Positions 26,083-57,153 of a stretch of 64,000 nucleotides of DNA are shown here, one piece after another; the stretch's first letter is position 1; each line of letters starts with the position of its first letter. The stretch is taken from NCBI GenBank assembly GCA_010093705.1, contig MU006089.1, forward strand, positions 2,157,561-2,221,560, written 5' to 3'. The translations under genes and the position numbers were made by a program. Under the pieces are notes generated by a model. That model saw only the letters and a list, made by a program, of their open reading frames with translations. It had not been told where the DNA came from and did no database searches. This DNA is from Patellaria atrata CBS 101060. Lineage: Eukaryota > Ascomycota > Dothideomycetes > Patellariales > Patellariaceae.

Positions 26083-27777
26083 CTACAGTCTAGAACCGTG
26101 GACGACCTTATAGTCGACAGCGAGTTCCTGGCCGTCATCATTGATGACGAGGACACGCACGCTGCCACGGCCATTGTCGAATGCCTCTGTGAGGCGAGAA
26201 AGGAGACCGCTCTGGTCAATGACGGGCAAGCCCTGCTTGATATCACCGGTCTCGGTCATTGCGACGACACGGCCGTCATCACGGACATCGAGGACACGGT
26301 ATTGCTTGAAGACAGGACCAAGCATGTTCTGGACAACAACGGACGGGGCCGGGGTGGAGATGAAGCTAGACTCTTCATGAAGCTGCTTGGTGAAAAGATC
26401 GACACCGAGATAGCGGTGTTGACCGGTTTGAGAAGAGGTGGTGATGCGGATGACTTGGCAAGGGCGGCCCTGAAGGATCAGGAGGTCGCCAATGCGGATG
26501 TGGTGGCAAGGGATAGTGATAGTGTTAGGGACGGCCATGGTGGGTAATGCGGAGACGGAGCTAGAGGTGTAGCTGGATGAAGAACCGACTTGGGGTGGAA
26601 GAGGACGAGATGAAACTGGGGCAGGACCTTGTGCTTGCGCTGGTGCTGAGATGTTGACTGTTTCCTTGATAACTACGTTCTCACGACCTTCGGGGTGATG
26701 ATGGTGATGATGACGGGGTCCGTGGATGGGATGACGGATACGGTCGGCAGCTCTGTGAAGACCGGCGCGGAAGGAGTGGTAGTTACCGTCGTCGTCGTAA
26801 TATCCCATATCACGCTTGTGCTTCTTGGGGGCGTCGACTGTTGTTCGAGTAGTTTCTACTCGAACTTCTGCCTGAGGCTGAGAGTAACGCTGAGGATACT
26901 CTTCTGCGCGTTGACCGGAGATCGGTTGATACTCTGCACTAACCTGAGCAGAGTAAAGGTTCTTAGTGGGAAATTCTGGAACGAAACCTGCTTGAGTTCG
27001 TTCACGGTATTGGCTTTCAGTGATGTCTAACTGAGAGCCGGCGTAATGGGTAGCAGGAGTGTGGACGGTATTGAAGTTGCGGTCGTAGACTTTGTCTTGT
27101 ACGCCGTATACCTTGTCCTTGACCTCTAACTGGGCGTCGGTGTAACGTTGATAGGGTTCTTGGTATCTGTAAAAGAAGAAAGTTAGAATGAGATGGAAGG
27201 GAGAAAAAAGTACGACTAGGTTAGGTAAGGATGTTGCTCAGACAACAAAACAATAAGCCACTAATGCCTAATTGGGCGACTAAAACATTAAAAGGGGAAA
27301 TTGTGCAAGTTGTGCACGCTAGAGGGTCACGGTCGTGTTTTGGAAATAGAAATTGCACACCGACTTTACTTACTGCTGACGTGCGGATTGTGGTTGATAC
27401 TGAGCTTGAGTATGAGTTCGAAGTTGAGGCTGGGGCTGATACTGAGGTTGCTGTTCACGTTCACGAGTAATATGGACTTCCTTGCGGAATTCTTTGTGCT
27501 CGCCTTGAACTGGTAGTTGTTGGGCTGCGGCTGGTCGTTGGTAGCGGTCCTGCTCGAAAACGCGTACCTCCTCTTCGAAACGTTGACCTCGTCGAGGATC
27601 GTCGGTTGAGAAGGCAGTGATGTGAGTTTCGTGACCTTCCCGTCCGACGCGCGATTTATCAGGTAGGTTGACTTCACCCTCTACCTTGATGCTAGTTTTC
27701 TCTGCTTTGACAGCGTCGCTCCGATACGAGGACGGGAAGACACTGAAGGGGATCGGGACGCGGGCGTCAAAGTCCAG
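26083..27777 (-). CDS. hex1: HEX1, Woronin body major protein, with candidate non-AUG N-terminal extension
   Basis: The AUG form is 26083-26808, 241 residues: MGYYDDDGNYHSF, a His-rich linker, then the eIF5A-like self-assembling core (TITIPCHHIRIGDLLILQG, GQHRYLGVDLFTKQLHEESS, PVFKQYRVLDV) and the peroxisomal signal SRL at the end. HEX1 crystallises inside peroxisomes to make Woronin bodies that plug septal pores. Upstream, the same frame is open through 26809-27166, a 207-nt intron (27167-27373, donor GTAAGT), and 27374 to about 27803. It reads as protein-like, Gln/Tyr-rich sequence (DARVPIPFSVFPSSYRSDAV; HITREREQQPQYQPQPQ), yet holds no ATG in any frame. I set the outer limit at a CUG in excellent context (AAC CTG GAC, 27777), giving 1488 nt or 495 residues. 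Long HEX1 forms are known in other fungi, as far as I recall. The AUG form is certain; the extension is inferred. Confidence 0.9.
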
Positions 27778-27803
27778 GTTGGCTGGAGTCGCGGCGTCCT
27801 TTC

Positions 27804-27945
27804 TTGAATGCCTCTCGAACCGTTACGGGTAACAATTCGAAAGGAAGACAAGAAAGAACTTCTTGGCTCCTTACGGTGAGAAAGATCTCAAAAGATGGGT
27901 AAAGGAAGAAGCGACGTGGTAGCCAGCTTCGAAGGTATTTAAAGC
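27804..27945 (-). promoter_or_regulatory. hex1 leader start: TATA-like box and leader intron
   Basis: Reading the minus strand, a TTTAAATA element lies at about 27935-27943. A candidate 71-nt intron follows at 27804-27874 (donor GTAAGG, acceptor CAAG). Splicing it joins a further open frame to the hex1 extension, while the unspliced sequence has an in-frame TAA just upstream of the extension. The TATA position implies transcription starting near 27905. All of this is inferred from sequence signals. Confidence 0.4.
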
Positions 27946-30310
27946 TCTGAAGAGCAGTGGGGAAACGATTGAAACGTGATGAGGTGCAATTGGCGGAGTT
28001 TGTGATGATGAAGAGTGAGATGTAGCACGAAGAAGGAGAGTGGAGGAGAGGTAAAAGAAATGGGCGCGAGAGGGGAGCAAGAGGTTGACTGGGAGATGGC
28101 TGGGGGGTGGTCGGAGAAAGCTCTCAGCTTAGAGCGGCTTTTTGTTGTGCAGTGATCCGCGACGTTAGCGCGTAAACAACTCAAGCTTGGCCGGCCAAAT
28201 CGAGCTAAATTACTCCTTTTCATTCCCCCTGGCGCCTCATGAATATCAATCACATGCATTTGCTTCAAATCTCATCACTCGAAGGCCACCAAAATCATCA
28301 ATTGTACCTTCTCAAGAATTGTATCTTCAAAATTCAGACTCCAGCATCGAGGTGATATCCTTCGAGAAGATGGTTTCGCAATTATGCCCGATTCCCAAGC
28401 CTTCAATTGCTGATTGCTCAGTTCATTGCGTTACGCAAACCTCACAGGTTTCGAACCCGCCATTTCCTTGTAGAGTATCCACTGCATAACTCGTGGTGCC
28501 TGGCCATTGGATAGTATGGACCTCGGATAGTATATCACCGCGTCTTTGATGCAAACAATCGATAGTGATGCAGAAGAGTGAGATTTCGTTGGAAGCTTTC
28601 AGCTGAGTTTGTCGTGAGACCCGCAGCTTATCCCCAGCCTCCTTTTTATGGTCGCGACGGTCATTGGATACGGTTTAGGCTGGAGTTGCTGCACCGTAAC
28701 GCCTTTCTGCACGTTCTGCATAATTGGCCGTCCACGGGTAGTATGAATCTGTTAGGCCCGAGCGAACCATATTCGCCAGCTTCACCTCATACGCTACCGT
28801 GGACCGATCGCAATATAATTCTCGGCTCTGCCGAATTACCGTCGAGGATACTATCGAATTATTTAGCTCCAAATATAGACGTAAGAGATCTCGAACAGCG
28901 AAAGGACGTTCAGACTTCAGAGTAACATGATTAGAGAGTTGTCTCACCTGTTCAACTACGCGTTCTCTTTTACTTCCAGTAATCAGTCTATTTTGGAGTA
29001 CATATCTTACTGGATATTCCAATGGCACTCTCTTCTCATATACTTCACGTATACCTCCTTAGGAGGACGACGTGACGTTGATTTAAAGTATCCTTCTCAC
29101 GTCTTAGGAGGCACGCAAGGCTCCTTCCCGTACGGAAGAATTTCTCTACTCATGGAATGCACTGTCTAGATTCGGTCAGCTCCTACCCAAGGTACATACT
29201 GCTATCGAATTCTCTTTAGTCTTTCGGGTACCAGTCATGGCTTCATTAATTTATCAACCCATCTTCCATTATTCAAATCTATAGGAAACCTCTGTTTGCT
29301 TAGCAACCATACACGAAGAAACCACATACGGACATAAGGTAGTACTTCTTTTAAATACATGCATCTTGGGAGCTGTATTCTTTAACCTAAAGTGTTCTAT
29401 TCCTCTTACCACTGATTCCAGCGCATAGCTCGAGTAACGTAATACTTCTCGGTCTCTTTCTAGTGTGTTTCTTTTCTTGTCGGACGTTGACAAGATTCAT
29501 GTCCCAAGCACATATTGACCTTGAGATGCTCATTTACCTCTTACTGGGGATCGGTGTCATGAAGAACGTTAGAAACATCAGTCATTTTTAGGTTGCCAGA
29601 TCTAATTCTATGTAGATATTGGATAAAACGGTTACAATGATCCATCTCACTAACACCTGTGTTTCAAAGCATCCATTGCATACGCAAAATCAATAGTATA
29701 CCTATGTTATAGGGGCAGCCTATGAGTCCGCAACAATAAGAGATGCATATCACTGAGCATTCTAGGATACCTTGGGTTATGGTATCTTTAGAATTGGTCT
29801 AACTGATCAATTCCTATTTTACGGTAGTTTTGTTTGGTACTCTCTTCCAGGTTGTACTACGGTCTGAATACCCTATCACATATGTACTGGTCTCTTCCAG
29901 GTTAGAAACGGGTACTTTCCTCTATGTTAGCAGGTAATGTCAGCCAGTTGTATAGTGCCGTACAATTGGAGAAAGTCACGAGTGATATGCAGCAAGACAA
30001 GGATAGCCTGCATGCATTAGGATGTTATGCTTTGTTACGTGGCGATCCCGTCTACTATGTCACGTCGTTGTAAAGCGCTAGGAGAATTATTTTTTTTTTA
30101 ATTCATGACTCTTAGGTTCGCCGCATCGTGCGGACTTTCCCAAAGCGTTTGTCCGTTTATCTTATTTACAGTACCTGCGGCTCCCCATGACATAAAGCTA
30201 CAGTAGTCATCACTTCAAACCAAATCACAATAGCACACACAGTCTTTTCCTCTCCGACAATTCTTTTCCACACAGGAATCCTTTGAAGTTCTACAGTCAA
30301 TTCATCCGCC
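27946..30310. other. Long intergenic region between hex1 and rio1 (divergent)
   Basis: Upstream regions of hex1 (minus) and rio1 (plus). The first 275 bp also lack ATG on the minus strand. Overlapping open frames on both strands at 28578-29028 have no family features and are not called. The motif tctcttccaggtt occurs twice at about 29843 and 29892. A T9 run precedes the rio1 promoter near 30095. No RNA gene seen. Confidence 0.5.
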
Positions 30311-34077: not shown

Positions 34078-35418
34078 TTACTGTTTATCCATAAGACCAG
34101 CGGTCCTCTTGCGATTTTGAATATCTACAGTGACCCCGAGCGCTTCCAAAGCTGCTATAGCAGGCCCAGCAGCGTCTATACCTGCGGAATGCTTCGTCTC
34201 CTTAACCGCATTAGTAAGGAATTCTTCCCACGTAGATGTGATCAGCGTTACCGACTCAAAGTCAGGAAATGACTTTGCTTCCGTATTCACATCAACGTTT
34301 GTGGGGTATAGTAGAAGTTGTAAATTAGTAAGTATTCGCAGCTGTTCTTTTGACTCTTGTATCTCTCTTAGCAACTCCGCTGAGCCAGAAAGACTGTCTG
34401 TCGAAATAGTAAGAGAAGAAATCGACCTTGGTAAGTTTGAAATCAAAGCTGTAGAGCTGGGCTCTGTCCAGTCCAGTTCTAGCTCCCTTACGTTCGAGGA
34501 TGAAAGAAATCTTTGTAACACAACACGAGTCTCCCCTGTAGGAGTGTAATCCGTTGTAATCCGAAGTATTCGCAGCGTCTTGGAATGTGCATCTAGTGCA
34601 GATAGAAAACTAGGTGATATAAATATAGGGCCTTTCCTATACTGACTGATGGTTTCGCGTATGCAAAGTTTGCTTAAGGGCCGCACACAGCGAAGGGTAT
34701 GGCCATCGAAAGACTGTCGCCGTCCAATAGAATTACTTGAGCCATGCCCACCAAGCATAAGGGTTGGAGAGGAATCTATTAGCTCAAGTGTAGTTAAACT
34801 GGACAGACTGTTGAGAACTTTGAGAGTCTCGGAGGGGCTTGTTACCGAAAAACCGGTAAATCGAATAGACCGAAGGTTCGACAGGTGTTCCAAAAATGTC
34901 AAGGATTGCTCGTCGCTATAAAAGCTGATGTCTTGGAGTTTCGGGAAATAATGACCTAAAGTGTCCAAACACGCTTGATAAAGGGATCTGTACAGGTACG
35001 ATTGCAAAAGCGGCGGTCGATGAATCGTAAGGCAGCGAAGATTCCGGAATCCTGAAAGTGCACTCAATATTGCTTCGCGTTCTGACTTGTAGAGGGTTGG
35101 CCCTTGAACCTTTGGTGGTAGTTGGGCTACGGATGAAGACAATACGGACCTAAAATTGACGTCCTGGAGTTGGAAAGTCAGAGAGGTAACGTATTGTAGA
35201 TTGACAGTGCCGACAAGCTCAATCCAAGCCTGAAGAGCAGCCTGTGACTCGAAAGACTGAGGCCTTTTGTACAGAAATTTCTGGGACTCCGAGTGTAGTT
35301 GATGACTGACTCTCGGAAGCTGTGGGTTTCCTTTAGATCCAAGCATGACGTACTGATAGATATGCTCGCGGAGTTCGAGAGGAAGTGCAAAGAACAGAGG
35401 CTCGGATAATGAATACAT
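34078..35418 (-). CDS. F-box-like / leucine-rich-repeat protein
   Basis: A single-exon gene of 446 residues. Residues 8-30 (FFALPLELREHIYQYVMLG) form a degenerate F-box-like helix pair of the LPxELRxxIY type found in many fungal proteins. The rest is an irregular leucine-rich-repeat solenoid: GFRNLRCLTIHRPP, LSNLRSIRFTGFSV, LSSLTTLELIDSSP, SKTLRILRITTDY and SNVRELELDW. F-box/LRR proteins usually recruit substrates to SCF ubiquitin ligases, but this fungal subgroup often lacks proof of Skp1 binding. No membrane segment. The ATG at 35418 is the natural start, directly before the F-box-like motif. Target unknown. Confidence 0.85.
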   Translation of the reverse strand: MYSLSEPLFFALPLELREHIYQYVMLGSKGNPQLPRVSHQLHSESQKFLYKRPQSFESQAALQAWIELVGTVNLQYVTSLTFQLQDVNFRSVLSSSVAQLPPKVQGPTLYKSEREAILSALSGFRNLRCLTIHRPPLLQSYLYRSLYQACLDTLGHYFPKLQDISFYSDEQSLTFLEHLSNLRSIRFTGFSVTSPSETLKVLNSLSSLTTLELIDSSPTLMLGGHGSSNSIGRRQSFDGHTLRCVRPLSKLCIRETISQYRKGPIFISPSFLSALDAHSKTLRILRITTDYTPTGETRVVLQRFLSSSNVRELELDWTEPSSTALISNLPRSISSLTISTDSLSGSAELLREIQESKEQLRILTNLQLLLYPTNVDVNTEAKSFPDFESVTLITSTWEEFLTNAVKETKHSAGIDAAGPAIAALEALGVTVDIQNRKRTAGLMDKQ

Positions 35419-54051: not shown

Positions 54052-56232
54052 TTGAAGGTCCCGCAATGACCTCGGCGTCGCCATCGGTCATTGGGGTATC
54101 GATGGCGCTGGCGGCTAGGATGGAGTATTGGCCGCCAGCGCCGGCCCAAATGACATGGCGATCTTTGATCGCCGTATTGGCGATTTGCGTCGCCACTTCG
54201 ATATCATCGTCGGTTCCCTGCCCTGTCTGGTAGTTGGCAGAGAACCCCCAAGAATAAACCTTTCCGGTCTTAGTTACACATATGGTATGGTCGGGACCAC
54301 ATGTGACATATTGGGCATCGTTGATGCCTGGGACCTCTGTAGGGACCTTGAGGATTTTTGGACGAGTCTGATTCTCGTCCGCGTACTGCAGGTCGTTGTG
54401 ATGTTGCGCAGTCAGGTCAGCAATACGGATACCCATTTGGTACCCGTCGACACGGCCCCATATGAGGAGCTTTCCATCATTCGTGACTGCTGCGGAGTGG
54501 TGCGCACCACCACAGATCTGCTTGATCCCTTTGCCTGACAGAGCTGGTACTTTCGTTGGGGTCTCAACGATTGCATTGGCTTCACCAACGGTTTGTGACG
54601 TGATGCCAGTTTCGCCCCAAGAATTGTTGCCCCAGGCCCAAACATTGTCCTTGTTGTCGATACCGAATGAATGATAGTCGCCACTTCCGATAGCAAGGAC
54701 ACCCTTCTTTGGGAGATTGACCGGATGCGGGTCGAGACCGGTTTCTTTTGTACGCTCAACCATGCGGCGACCAAGTTGGTTTTGTTGGCCAGATCCCCAA
54801 GCAAAGACCGAGCCGTTCTTGTCAAGTGCAAGTGCATGATTGGCACCGCAGGCGACCTGCTTGATGTTCTTCAGGCCTGGGACTAGCTTGGGTTCGAGCT
54901 GAACAAGTTTGCCCTTGTGGAGGTCCTCCTTGGAGAATCCGAAAATGCCTTCATTTGTCTATTGATTTTGTTAGTTTTAACATGTAAATCATGTGAATTA
55001 AAAAGCAACTTACCCTGAAGGTGCCCCATCCGTACACATTGCCCTCATCGGTGACACCAAATGTTGTACTATCGCCTGCAGCGACTGATGAGAATCTGGG
55101 ATTATCAGGGAAACACTCCGGTGGGATGGGAGTAGGGTTGGCCTCTAAAGGATTCATTCCAGAATCGCTTCCAGAATCCGAGCTAGAGCTATCGTCGTCC
55201 TGGTTCTCGTTTATCTCTTTCAACCCTCCATCCCAAGCAGTATTCCGTCCAAGTGCTCCCTGGTCATTCACTCCCCAAGTCAGAATCTGGTTATCATGGG
55301 TTAAAGCCGCACAGTGCATTCCACCGGCAGCGACTTGGACAACACCTGCTTTTGAAGCCGAAAGACTGGGATTGAAACGTGGACGTTTGACATCCACTGC
55401 ATTCTTGGCCGTTCCAAGACCAAGTTCACCATTGCTACCTTCACCGAATACGAAGTAGTCGAAGCGTCCTTCCGGAAGTTCGTTGATCTTTGGCAAAGCC
55501 TTCTTTGGCTTAACCGGAGCTTTCTTACGGGGCTTAGACTCCTTGGGGGCTTTCGTAGCCTTGGCTGGTTTTGGAGCAACAGATGGTTGCTTGACTGTCT
55601 TAGCACGCTTTGACTTTGGCTGCTCATCATCACTCTCGTCCTCAGATGCAGGGTTTGGACGTTTAGCCGCTTTCTTCGGTTTGACGTCCTTCTTCTTGGG
55701 TGCAACTGGCTCCTTCGAGGTCGGTGCAGTCGCCTTTTCGGTCCCAGTAACCTTAACTTTTGCTGGTGCTTTGGCGGGCTCGGCTGGAGGAGCCGCTTTC
55801 TTGCGTGGCTCTCTCTTCGACGCAGCGGTCTCTGTGGCGGCGACCTTTGTGGCTGCGGCTCTCTTTGGACGAGCAGGTACTTTCTCAGTATCTTTATCAA
55901 TATTAGTATGTTCTTAAGCAAAGCAATGGAGGTTAGAGAACAAACTTACCGGCTTTGGCTTTACCCTTGCCTTTGGGTGCAGACTTTGCTGGTGCTTCTT
56001 CCGTATCACTGGCACCAGTCATCTCTTCGTCATCGCTAATATGCTCTTGGACATCGGTGTTATTAACGTCTTCATTGGAAGCGTCATTGTCAGAAGTATA
56101 GGCCTTTGCTGCGCCTTTAGCTGCACCTTTCCTCGGTGCTGCCTTCTTCTTGGTGACTTTGGCTTGCGTATTTGCGCGTAATGGCGACTTATCTTTAGTA
56201 GCAGCCGCTTTGGTGCGCTTTTCTCTCGCCAT
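54041..56232 (-). CDS. RCC1-family Ran guanine nucleotide exchange factor
   Basis: Three exons, 55950-56232, 55014-55891 and 54041-54958, with introns of 58 and 55 nt, total 2079 nt or 692 residues. Residues 1 to about 235 are a Lys/Ala/Pro-rich, histone-tail-like basic region with acidic patches, suited to chromatin binding and nuclear import. The RCC1 propeller follows, with its repeated G-x-N/G-x-x-G-x-L-G pattern: FGEGSNGELGLG, WGVNDQGALGRN, WGSGQQNQLGRR, WGNNSWGETG, and AAGGMHCAAL, CGANHALALD and CGGAHHSAAV. Homologues (yeast Srm1, fission yeast Pim1) load Ran with GTP on chromatin and so drive nuclear transport and spindle and envelope assembly. An acidic Ser/Asp insert (DDDSSSSDSGSDSG) lies in blade 2. 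The start at 56232 is MAREKRTK. Hairpins overlap the stop codon. Confidence 0.94.
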
Positions 56233-57153
56233 TGTGGTGAGAAGTGAAAGAATGTGTAAAGGGTTTGTGAGTTATCGAAGCTGAGTTCGAATAGATGTTG
56301 TGTTGAAGTTACTTTGATGTTGCTTTGATGTTACGTTGACGGTCGTTATATTGGGGAGAGATTGAGGTTGATGACTGGTGAGAATGAATTTTCTTTGTGT
56401 TGTTGAAGACGGGTTTGGAATGGGTGTCGAGGTCGGACGTGAAATGTTCGAGTTCCGGGTTGTTGTGATGACGCGCGCGTCTGAACGAGCAAGTTGTGCT
56501 TCGAAAGTAACAGATTATGTTCTCACTTGAAGAATCGCGATGCGAATTTCAAATAGAAAAATTTGTTGCGATAGAAGGTTGTTGAGCTGCTAATCGAAGA
56601 ACAATCGAAGAACAAACTGTGAGTGATGTTATTGTGGAAGATTGTTCGTGGCGCCCTCAAAGAAAACAAAAGGAAGCTTTCTCGCTTAATATCCGCTCCA
56701 GGGGATTTGCCGCGGAGCGAGAATGAAGCGAGAACTAGCGTTGATTACGTTATTATTCGCAACCGCTTTAGGCCTTTTTGACAAGTCCATGGTCCCTGTT
56801 ATCCTTGGATCCCGCTTTTCTGGCTGCGCTTGCCCTCAAGGTGCATGTGTGTTGCGGCAATGCGGCTCACCACGGCTGGATCTTTGCATGGCGTACACTT
56901 GAACGCGCTTCTTACCCAATCGTAGCCTATAACTATCCTGTAAACTTCAACAACTACCCGGCAAGCCCAATCATCCCCTTAACCCATCACTGTAACTAAC
57001 TTGAGGCTAGCGTGAGGTGTCCAGCAAGGTACTGTTCTTGGGGGGTGTAGGTAGGCGTCATCTACCTGTACAGGTACCTGACTGTTACCTAAAGGTAGTC
57101 TCGAAACTCCCCCATCCTCATAATACTCTCCTCCACGGAACACAGTTGTCGCT
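56233..57153. other. Divergent intergenic Ran GEF / phosphoesterase
   Basis: Promoter region of the Ran GEF gene (minus) and of the phosphoesterase gene (plus). An 11-nt direct duplication (atcgaagaaca) occurs near 56600. The AGGTA-type palindromes at 57063-57097 are listed separately. A plus-strand frame at 56778-56999 has no family features and is not called. Confidence 0.55.
57063..57097. promoter_or_regulatory. Paired palindromes TACCTGTACAGGTA and TACCTaaAGGTA
   Basis: A perfect 14-bp palindrome at 57063-57076 is followed by an inverted repeat TACCT-aa-AGGTA at 57086-57097. The centres are about 22 bp apart, or two helical turns. They lie 57-91 bp upstream of the phosphoesterase start codon, in leader or core promoter position. 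The symmetry suggests binding by a dimeric factor. The factor is unknown. Confidence 0.45.

Follow-up and report, generated by a model that had tools for sequence, protein, structure and literature searches.

The stretch of Patellaria atrata CBS 101060 DNA analysed here (the window; 64,000 nucleotides (nt), contig MU006089.1) carries on its minus strand, at 26083..26808, the gene for HEX1, the Woronin-body protein that plugs wounded fungal hyphae. Between its AUG (26806-26808) and its stop codon (26083-26085) this gene encodes 241 amino acids (aa), running from MGYYDDDG to SRL. The product has the MGYYDD-type N-terminus, the eIF5A-like core and the SRL-type C-terminus of the HEX1 family, the last of these resembling a type 1 peroxisomal targeting signal (PTS1); it matches IF5A-like_N and eIF-5a in Pfam, and PDB 1KHI is found among its structural relatives. 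We think it likely, from sequence comparison, that the hex1 mRNA has two in-phase starts, with leaky scanning at a conserved CUG giving a long form, HEX1-L, and the remaining ribosomes giving HEX1 from the AUG.

The open frame upstream of HEX1

Upstream of the AUG an open frame of 269 codons (27822-27374 and 27166-26809) runs in phase with HEX1 once a putative intron of 207 nt (GTAAGT...TTACAG; 27167..27373, minus strand) is removed. Both intron and open frame had been proposed in the original prediction, the frame as far as about 27803. The spliced product proves to be collinear with homologs over 99% of its length, and the frame extends slightly beyond the claimed limit, to 27822, where it is closed by an in-frame TAA (27823..27825, minus strand) within the apical part of a leader hairpin. 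Counted from that TAA the spliced product has 510 residues, of which up to 99-100% are covered by matches to long HEX1 models from other fungi.

The proposed start codon, a CUG at 27775..27777 on the minus strand (context GCCAACCUGG, with G at -6, A at -3 and G at +4), lies in HEX1 phase 254 codons 5' of the AUG and would give a protein of 495 rather than 241 residues. It is the first CUG downstream of the putative transcription start, which the original prediction had estimated to be near 27905; a putative TATA-like element, TTTAAATA, is found at 27936..27943 on the same strand. The extension consists of a 5' exon part that begins at the CUG (27374..27777) and a 3' exon part without ATG (26809..27166), both on the minus strand, and its 254 aa are rich in Gln, Arg and Glu. 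It is probably disordered, to judge from the AlphaFold model of one homolog (P0001; 18 rows), in which residues 1-116 and 118-266 fall below a pLDDT of 50; among solved structures none was found that credibly resembles the extension (best E 0.18).

As had been claimed, a full scan of 26809-28220 found a single minus-strand ATG, at 27286-27288 inside the putative intron. The ATG gap from 27286 to 28221 (935 nt) is the longest on the minus strand of the window, the runner-up being 588 nt, and in 200 kb sampled from this genome, about 11 kb of which reads N, gaps above 935 nt on either strand occurred only in N-runs, the longest other gap being 719 nt. Some 315 nt of the gap precede the putative transcription start, in keeping with the earlier caution that part of the ATG absence lies upstream of the putative TATA box. 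The accompanying expectation of 17-22 ATGs was too high: for the mature leader of 890 nt, which has none, base composition predicts 10.7 and a first-order Markov model 3.0 (P of zero 0.047). The extension contains no out-of-frame ATG, against 2.6 expected by synonymous permutation (P 0.031), 3.4 from the codon usage of the core (P 0.0135) and 4.4 with uniform codons (P 0.005); the HEX1 core has 6, against 5.5 expected. The depletion is only modestly significant in this one sequence, so it is the comparative evidence that carries the case, and it was on comparative grounds, not single-sequence statistics, that chance was rejected as the sole cause of the gap. The next-longest minus-strand ATG gaps in the window lie at 34756-35344 (588 nt) and 56230-56788 (558 nt).

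Conservation of the extension and of the codon context

Three protein searches returned 910, 995 and 953 matches, and the best 120 of each gave 228 distinct homologs; these were picked by similarity to queries with a Met-free extension, two of which were chimeras toward Sordariomycetes and Eurotiomycetes. Lack of protein-level conservation of the extension had been named beforehand as one of the results that would refute the original prediction. The extension is conserved, the best of the 910 matches to the long query showing 59% identity over 99% of its length. The genera that carry it, with class taken from the genus name, presumably fall in five large classes and include Sordariomycete, Leotiomycete and Eurotiomycete genera, and amino acids are conserved downstream of the CUG in the HEX1 frame for roughly 160-320 residues.

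The most conserved block of the extension, LDFDARVPIPFSVFPSSYRSDA (27712..27777, minus strand), begins at the CUG. When the P[IVLA]P[FIL]S[VI]FP block alone was used as an anchor it was found in 192 of the 228 homologs, 189 of them with enough upstream residues, and Leu-Asp stood at the place of the CUG in 161 of these 189. A pattern in which the Leu was left free recovered Leu at that position in 159 of 160 homologs. Among 161 homologs that another pattern, one requiring Leu-Asp, had recovered, the majority residue accounts for 84-99% at positions +12 to +18, which that pattern did not impose, and for 14-47% at -12 to -2, the latter figure being depressed by wrong gene models. In these alignments, protein conservation is switched on at the CUG, the very codon, with its A at -3 and G at +4, that had been singled out as the best candidate.

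The nucleotides around the codon appear to be conserved as well. In the homologs they were deduced from residues, and the CUG itself was read in the window DNA only, the homologs supplying the Leu and not its codon. Among the 161 homologs recovered with the pattern that required Leu-Asp, the residue preceding the Leu is Asn in 135, Thr in 13, Lys in 12 and Arg in 1, from which A at -3 can be deduced in 160, the remaining one being an ambiguous Arg; the anchored set, which overlaps with this one and is not identical to it, gives Asn 135, Thr 13, Lys 11 and Arg 2. Two residues before the Leu a codon beginning with G (-6) is deduced in 150 of 160, and the Asp after the Leu gives G at +4. Since Asn, Thr and Lys are alike in little except the A that begins their codons, selection has apparently acted on the nucleotides at -6, -3 and +4, and the pattern looks like selection on those of a start codon rather than on protein. 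Together with the conserved extension, this Kozak-like context lends support to the proposal that a long HEX1 begins at an upstream near-cognate codon. The codon itself is partly visible in Aspergillus flavus, where the hexA-ORF-R primer (PMC6371581) is complementary to GGACTTTGACGCCCGTGT and so corresponds to xxG-Asp-Phe-Asp-Ala-Arg-Val, with 1 difference from the window in 18 bases; because the Leu codon thus ends in G, it should be CUG or UUG in A. flavus. Relatives' DNA was also sought in viral contigs (by protein, alignment and hairpin pattern) and in genome contigs, and none was found.

Met is almost absent from the extension. The 181 of 228 homologs in which both of its ends were found have 1 Met (in P0090) in 39,232 extension residues, against 86 in 10,742 residues of the linker that follows the AUG and 398 in 21,265 residues of the core. 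The depletion is strong evidence, but no clean probability can be attached to it because the homologs are not independent, and only the depletion of Met is specific, since Cys and Trp are scarce in the linker as well. Among the 47 homologs that were dropped, 22 differ only in the spelling of the HEX1 start and have no Met preceding the HEX1 Met; the other 25 are without the upstream block and would include models truncated to an internal AUG.

The leader hairpin

The hairpin that lies 18 nt upstream of the CUG (27796..27859, minus strand) consists of 11 base pairs (bp), a 4x4 internal loop, 15 bp and a 4-nt loop. At -33.7 kcal/mol (z -8.26) it was matched in stability by 0 of 200 shuffles; folding of a longer stretch with the leader gave a z of only -2.1, and the hairpin persisted. 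Downstream of the CUG no RNA structure beyond chance was found, and no second copy of the hairpin was found in the genome. An Rfam search gave no match to it and two sub-threshold matches, both on the other strand.

In position and by description the hairpin fits the hexA motif, published from 19 examples in 10 species: a long hairpin in the leader, followed by a tail that is conserved and coding-like, with wobble-like variation at third positions (PMC5640933, Li & Breaker 2017). In the window, likewise, the 5' leader of a hex gene contains a long hairpin and protein-level conservation follows it, and this hairpin, compared by position and description, is probably that motif. There are differences: two internal loops were published whereas one, of 4x4, is predicted here, and at least 7 of the 19 published examples lie opposite to the hex gene. 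Li & Breaker invoked control of splicing, while doubting it, and observed that the right shoulder of the hairpin is 3' splice-site-like (PMC5640933); 'start codon' occurs 0 times in their text.

The leader was traced in the homologs by comparing the peptides before the Leu with the leader DNA of the window, at z >4 against 30 shuffles, in 85 homologs, a further 11 being of insufficient length. The leader upstream of the CUG was traceable in 27 of the 85, and for 10 of them the alignment begins on a base out of frame with HEX1. Across homologs the sequence around TCTTGTCTTCCTTTCG appears in three frames, as SCLPF, [ML]SSFR and LVFLS. Conservation of the leader is thus one of nucleotide sequence more than of protein in the HEX1 frame, and this places the start between the leader and the conserved block.

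Pairing in the homologs was assessed on peptide-derived degenerate sequence, by a free hairpin search (12 hand-picked homologs and 24 control stretches) and by a fixed-architecture test (66 homologs). In Botryosphaeria dothidea (P0002) it is clear, at 0/40 in the free search and 0/200 with the fixed architecture, and lies 17-18 nt before the Leu codon. The free search gave 1/40 for P0013 and P0139 and no significant result for the others; a control stretch, P0129_ext90, also scored 0/40. With the architecture fixed, P0009 and P0144 scored 2/200, P0083 4/200 (a match outside any recognisable leader), P0160 5/200 and P0129 8/200, and the mean z was 0.3. Covariation of the hairpin pairs is not claimed, the pairing of most homologs being not significant.

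Two starts on one mRNA or an upstream exon

With two starts on the hex1 mRNA, 43S complexes scanning the leader would encounter no AUG, and a fraction of them would initiate with Met-tRNAi at the CUG, whose context is near-optimal and which lies about 130 nt downstream of the putative cap, just past the strong hairpin. HEX1-L would then be a protein of 495 aa in which the 254-aa extension, with the highly conserved motif (Met)-DFDARVPIPFSVFPSSYRSDA at its head, is followed by the complete HEX1. The remaining complexes would leak past the CUG, scan 762 nt that are AUG-free in all frames and initiate at the HEX1 AUG. We infer from this arrangement that the CUG is used, that one mRNA yields both forms and that the hairpin, which may slow scanning complexes or retain them near the CUG, affects the CUG/AUG ratio. 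The likeliest role for HEX1-L, at a guess, is that of a minor, tailed subunit of the Woronin-body crystal that limits growth or binds a membrane or tether, and such a subunit is plausible because the extension is predicted to be disordered-like and the C-terminal SRL is retained. A bolder idea, which we hold only tentatively and with some doubt, is that the hairpin and the CUG act together as a specialised device for non-AUG initiation that dates back to the origin of the Pezizomycotina, at least 320 million years ago by an estimate quoted in PMC5487733. Under the influence of the hairpin, ribosomes would stall at the CUG or land on it, and this would fix how much tailed HEX1 is made relative to plain HEX1 and, through that, the size of the crystal or the tethering of Woronin bodies.

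The most serious competitor accepts that the long form is real and places its start codon, an AUG, on an upstream exon that is alternatively spliced and joined near the CUG; the hairpin would regulate splicing, and the unspliced form would be the leader of short HEX1. Li & Breaker 2017 (PMC5640933) put forward a similar hypothesis, and the splice-site-like shoulder of their hairpin suits it. Many database models are built in this way, 28 of the 189 anchored homologs joining directly before the PIPFS block; most homologs could have an AG immediately 5' of the Leu codon region, given G at -6 in 150 of 160, and in the window a CCAG ends 5 nt ahead of the CUG. A spliced upstream exon with an in-frame AUG was among the refutations that the original prediction had named, and upstream exons are indeed annotated, yet they differ among several congeners and among models of one species, although the test they provide is an indirect one. 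From the Leu onward three Aspergillus niger models are identical at 40 of 40 residues, whereas before it they share 2-4 of 12. In hand-picked pairs, agreement before the Leu is 3/12 in Penicillium nalgiovense, Staphylotrichum and Lachnellula, 5/11 in Parathielavia and 4/6 in Cadophora; the pairs from Talaromyces marneffei and Cenococcum match at 11/12 right before the Leu and diverge further upstream. Among the 138 Met-start models that contain the motif, 67 different distances separate the first residue from the Leu, and as annotated the AUG starts of long HEX1 are inconsistent. No Met start at all is given in 31 of the 228 models, and 17 of these 'partial' models, at least 3 of them on short contigs, begin 1-16 residues ahead of the Leu. 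The short contigs P0003, P0013, P0126 and P0132, which are perhaps cDNA, continue from the leader into the extension, and a splice site needs neither A at -3 nor G at +4 around the Leu. We regard the upstream exon as an improbable source of the long form.

Several observations nonetheless weigh against initiation at the CUG. In 28 of the 189 anchored homologs Leu-Asp is missing and the residues in its place are mutually unlike, as expected of homologs joined to unrelated predicted upstream exons, and some of the 28 may have a genuine alternative junction; P0111, with the motif otherwise intact, has Gln-Asp in place of Leu-Asp, with another Gln just before it (Gln-Gln-Asp). The A. flavus primer establishes only the final G of the Leu codon. 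Loss of the frame upstream is not universal, because the alignment of 17 of the 27 traceable leaders begins on a base in frame with HEX1, and the pairing deduced from peptides is clear in B. dothidea only, most of the 66 homologs being not significant. The absence of AUG is weakly significant on its own in this sequence, and an AUG-free leader would be equally expected if the long form took its AUG from another splice form. A hairpin of -33.7 kcal/mol near the cap should hinder scanning, which is odd in view of the abundance of HEX1. In Verticillium dahliae, too, one gene gives two forms of HEX1, but these isoforms (188 and 209 aa, 21 residues apart) result from alternative splicing of an intron near the AUG and represent a different event (PMC7762394).

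Hindrance by the hairpin, together with a scanning distance as long as 762 nt, would be accommodated if HEX1-L were the main product, from the CUG, and short HEX1 came from an internal promoter or from processing instead of leaky scanning; an internal promoter leaves an extension that is AUG-free in every frame unexplained, and we consider this alternative very unlikely. Least credible is an untranslated leader conserved for RNA function alone. In its favour are the conservation and, in the window, the strong folding of the DNA that precedes the CUG, and the published hexA RNA motif; against it, amino acids are conserved after the CUG, in the HEX1 frame and across the five classes, and the wobble positions vary (PMC5640933).

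The closest known mechanism for the two-start arrangement is the near-cognate extension of CPC1. Ivanov et al. 2017 (PMC5487733) described for cpc-1 an in-frame extension of about 180 aa across the Pezizomycotina that is as strongly conserved as the main open reading frame (ORF). Both genes have an in-frame extension upstream of the annotated AUG, and in both A at -3 and G at +4 flank near-cognate codons, but cpc-1 has AUG upstream ORFs and amino-acid control whereas hex1 here has an AUG-free leader, one leading codon and a long hairpin just upstream; the available text of that paper makes no mention of hex-1 or hex1. In Ustilago maydis PGD1 a non-AUG in-frame start also extends the N-terminus of a peroxisome-bound fungal protein, although there the added part bears a type 2 peroxisomal targeting signal (PTS2) and the start is at AGG-AUU (PMC7214817). 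In the literature searched, which left most subscription journals out, we found no proposal of a non-AUG start for HEX1; the papers combining 'Woronin' and 'non-AUG' use the words, in the text available, in unrelated places, and none combining 'Woronin' with 'near-cognate' was found.

Most work on HEX1 has concerned a protein of about 176-221 aa (PMC7559983, PMC7762394). Recorded lengths range from 79 to 2958 aa, about half of them between 405 and 534, a 'substantial length variation' (PMC7559983), and misannotation has been suggested as a possible explanation of N-terminal extensions (PMC7762394). If initiation at the CUG is real, about half of HEX1's conserved coding sequence has been overlooked or suspected of being misannotated; the long form would help to account for the length variation, and the unexplained hexA RNA motif would acquire a role. 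The hex1 gene would also be a clean test case for non-AUG starts beside RNA structure, in which one codon change should abolish the long form only. The same layout seems, on sequence, to recur in many filamentous ascomycetes, and the reading would probably apply to models such as Neurospora and Aspergillus. The Sordaria and Neurospora tetraspora models P0121 and P0123 carry the extension (KLDFEARVPVPFSIFP...), and because they do, the hex-1 of N. crassa, studied as a 176-aa protein, probably has it too.

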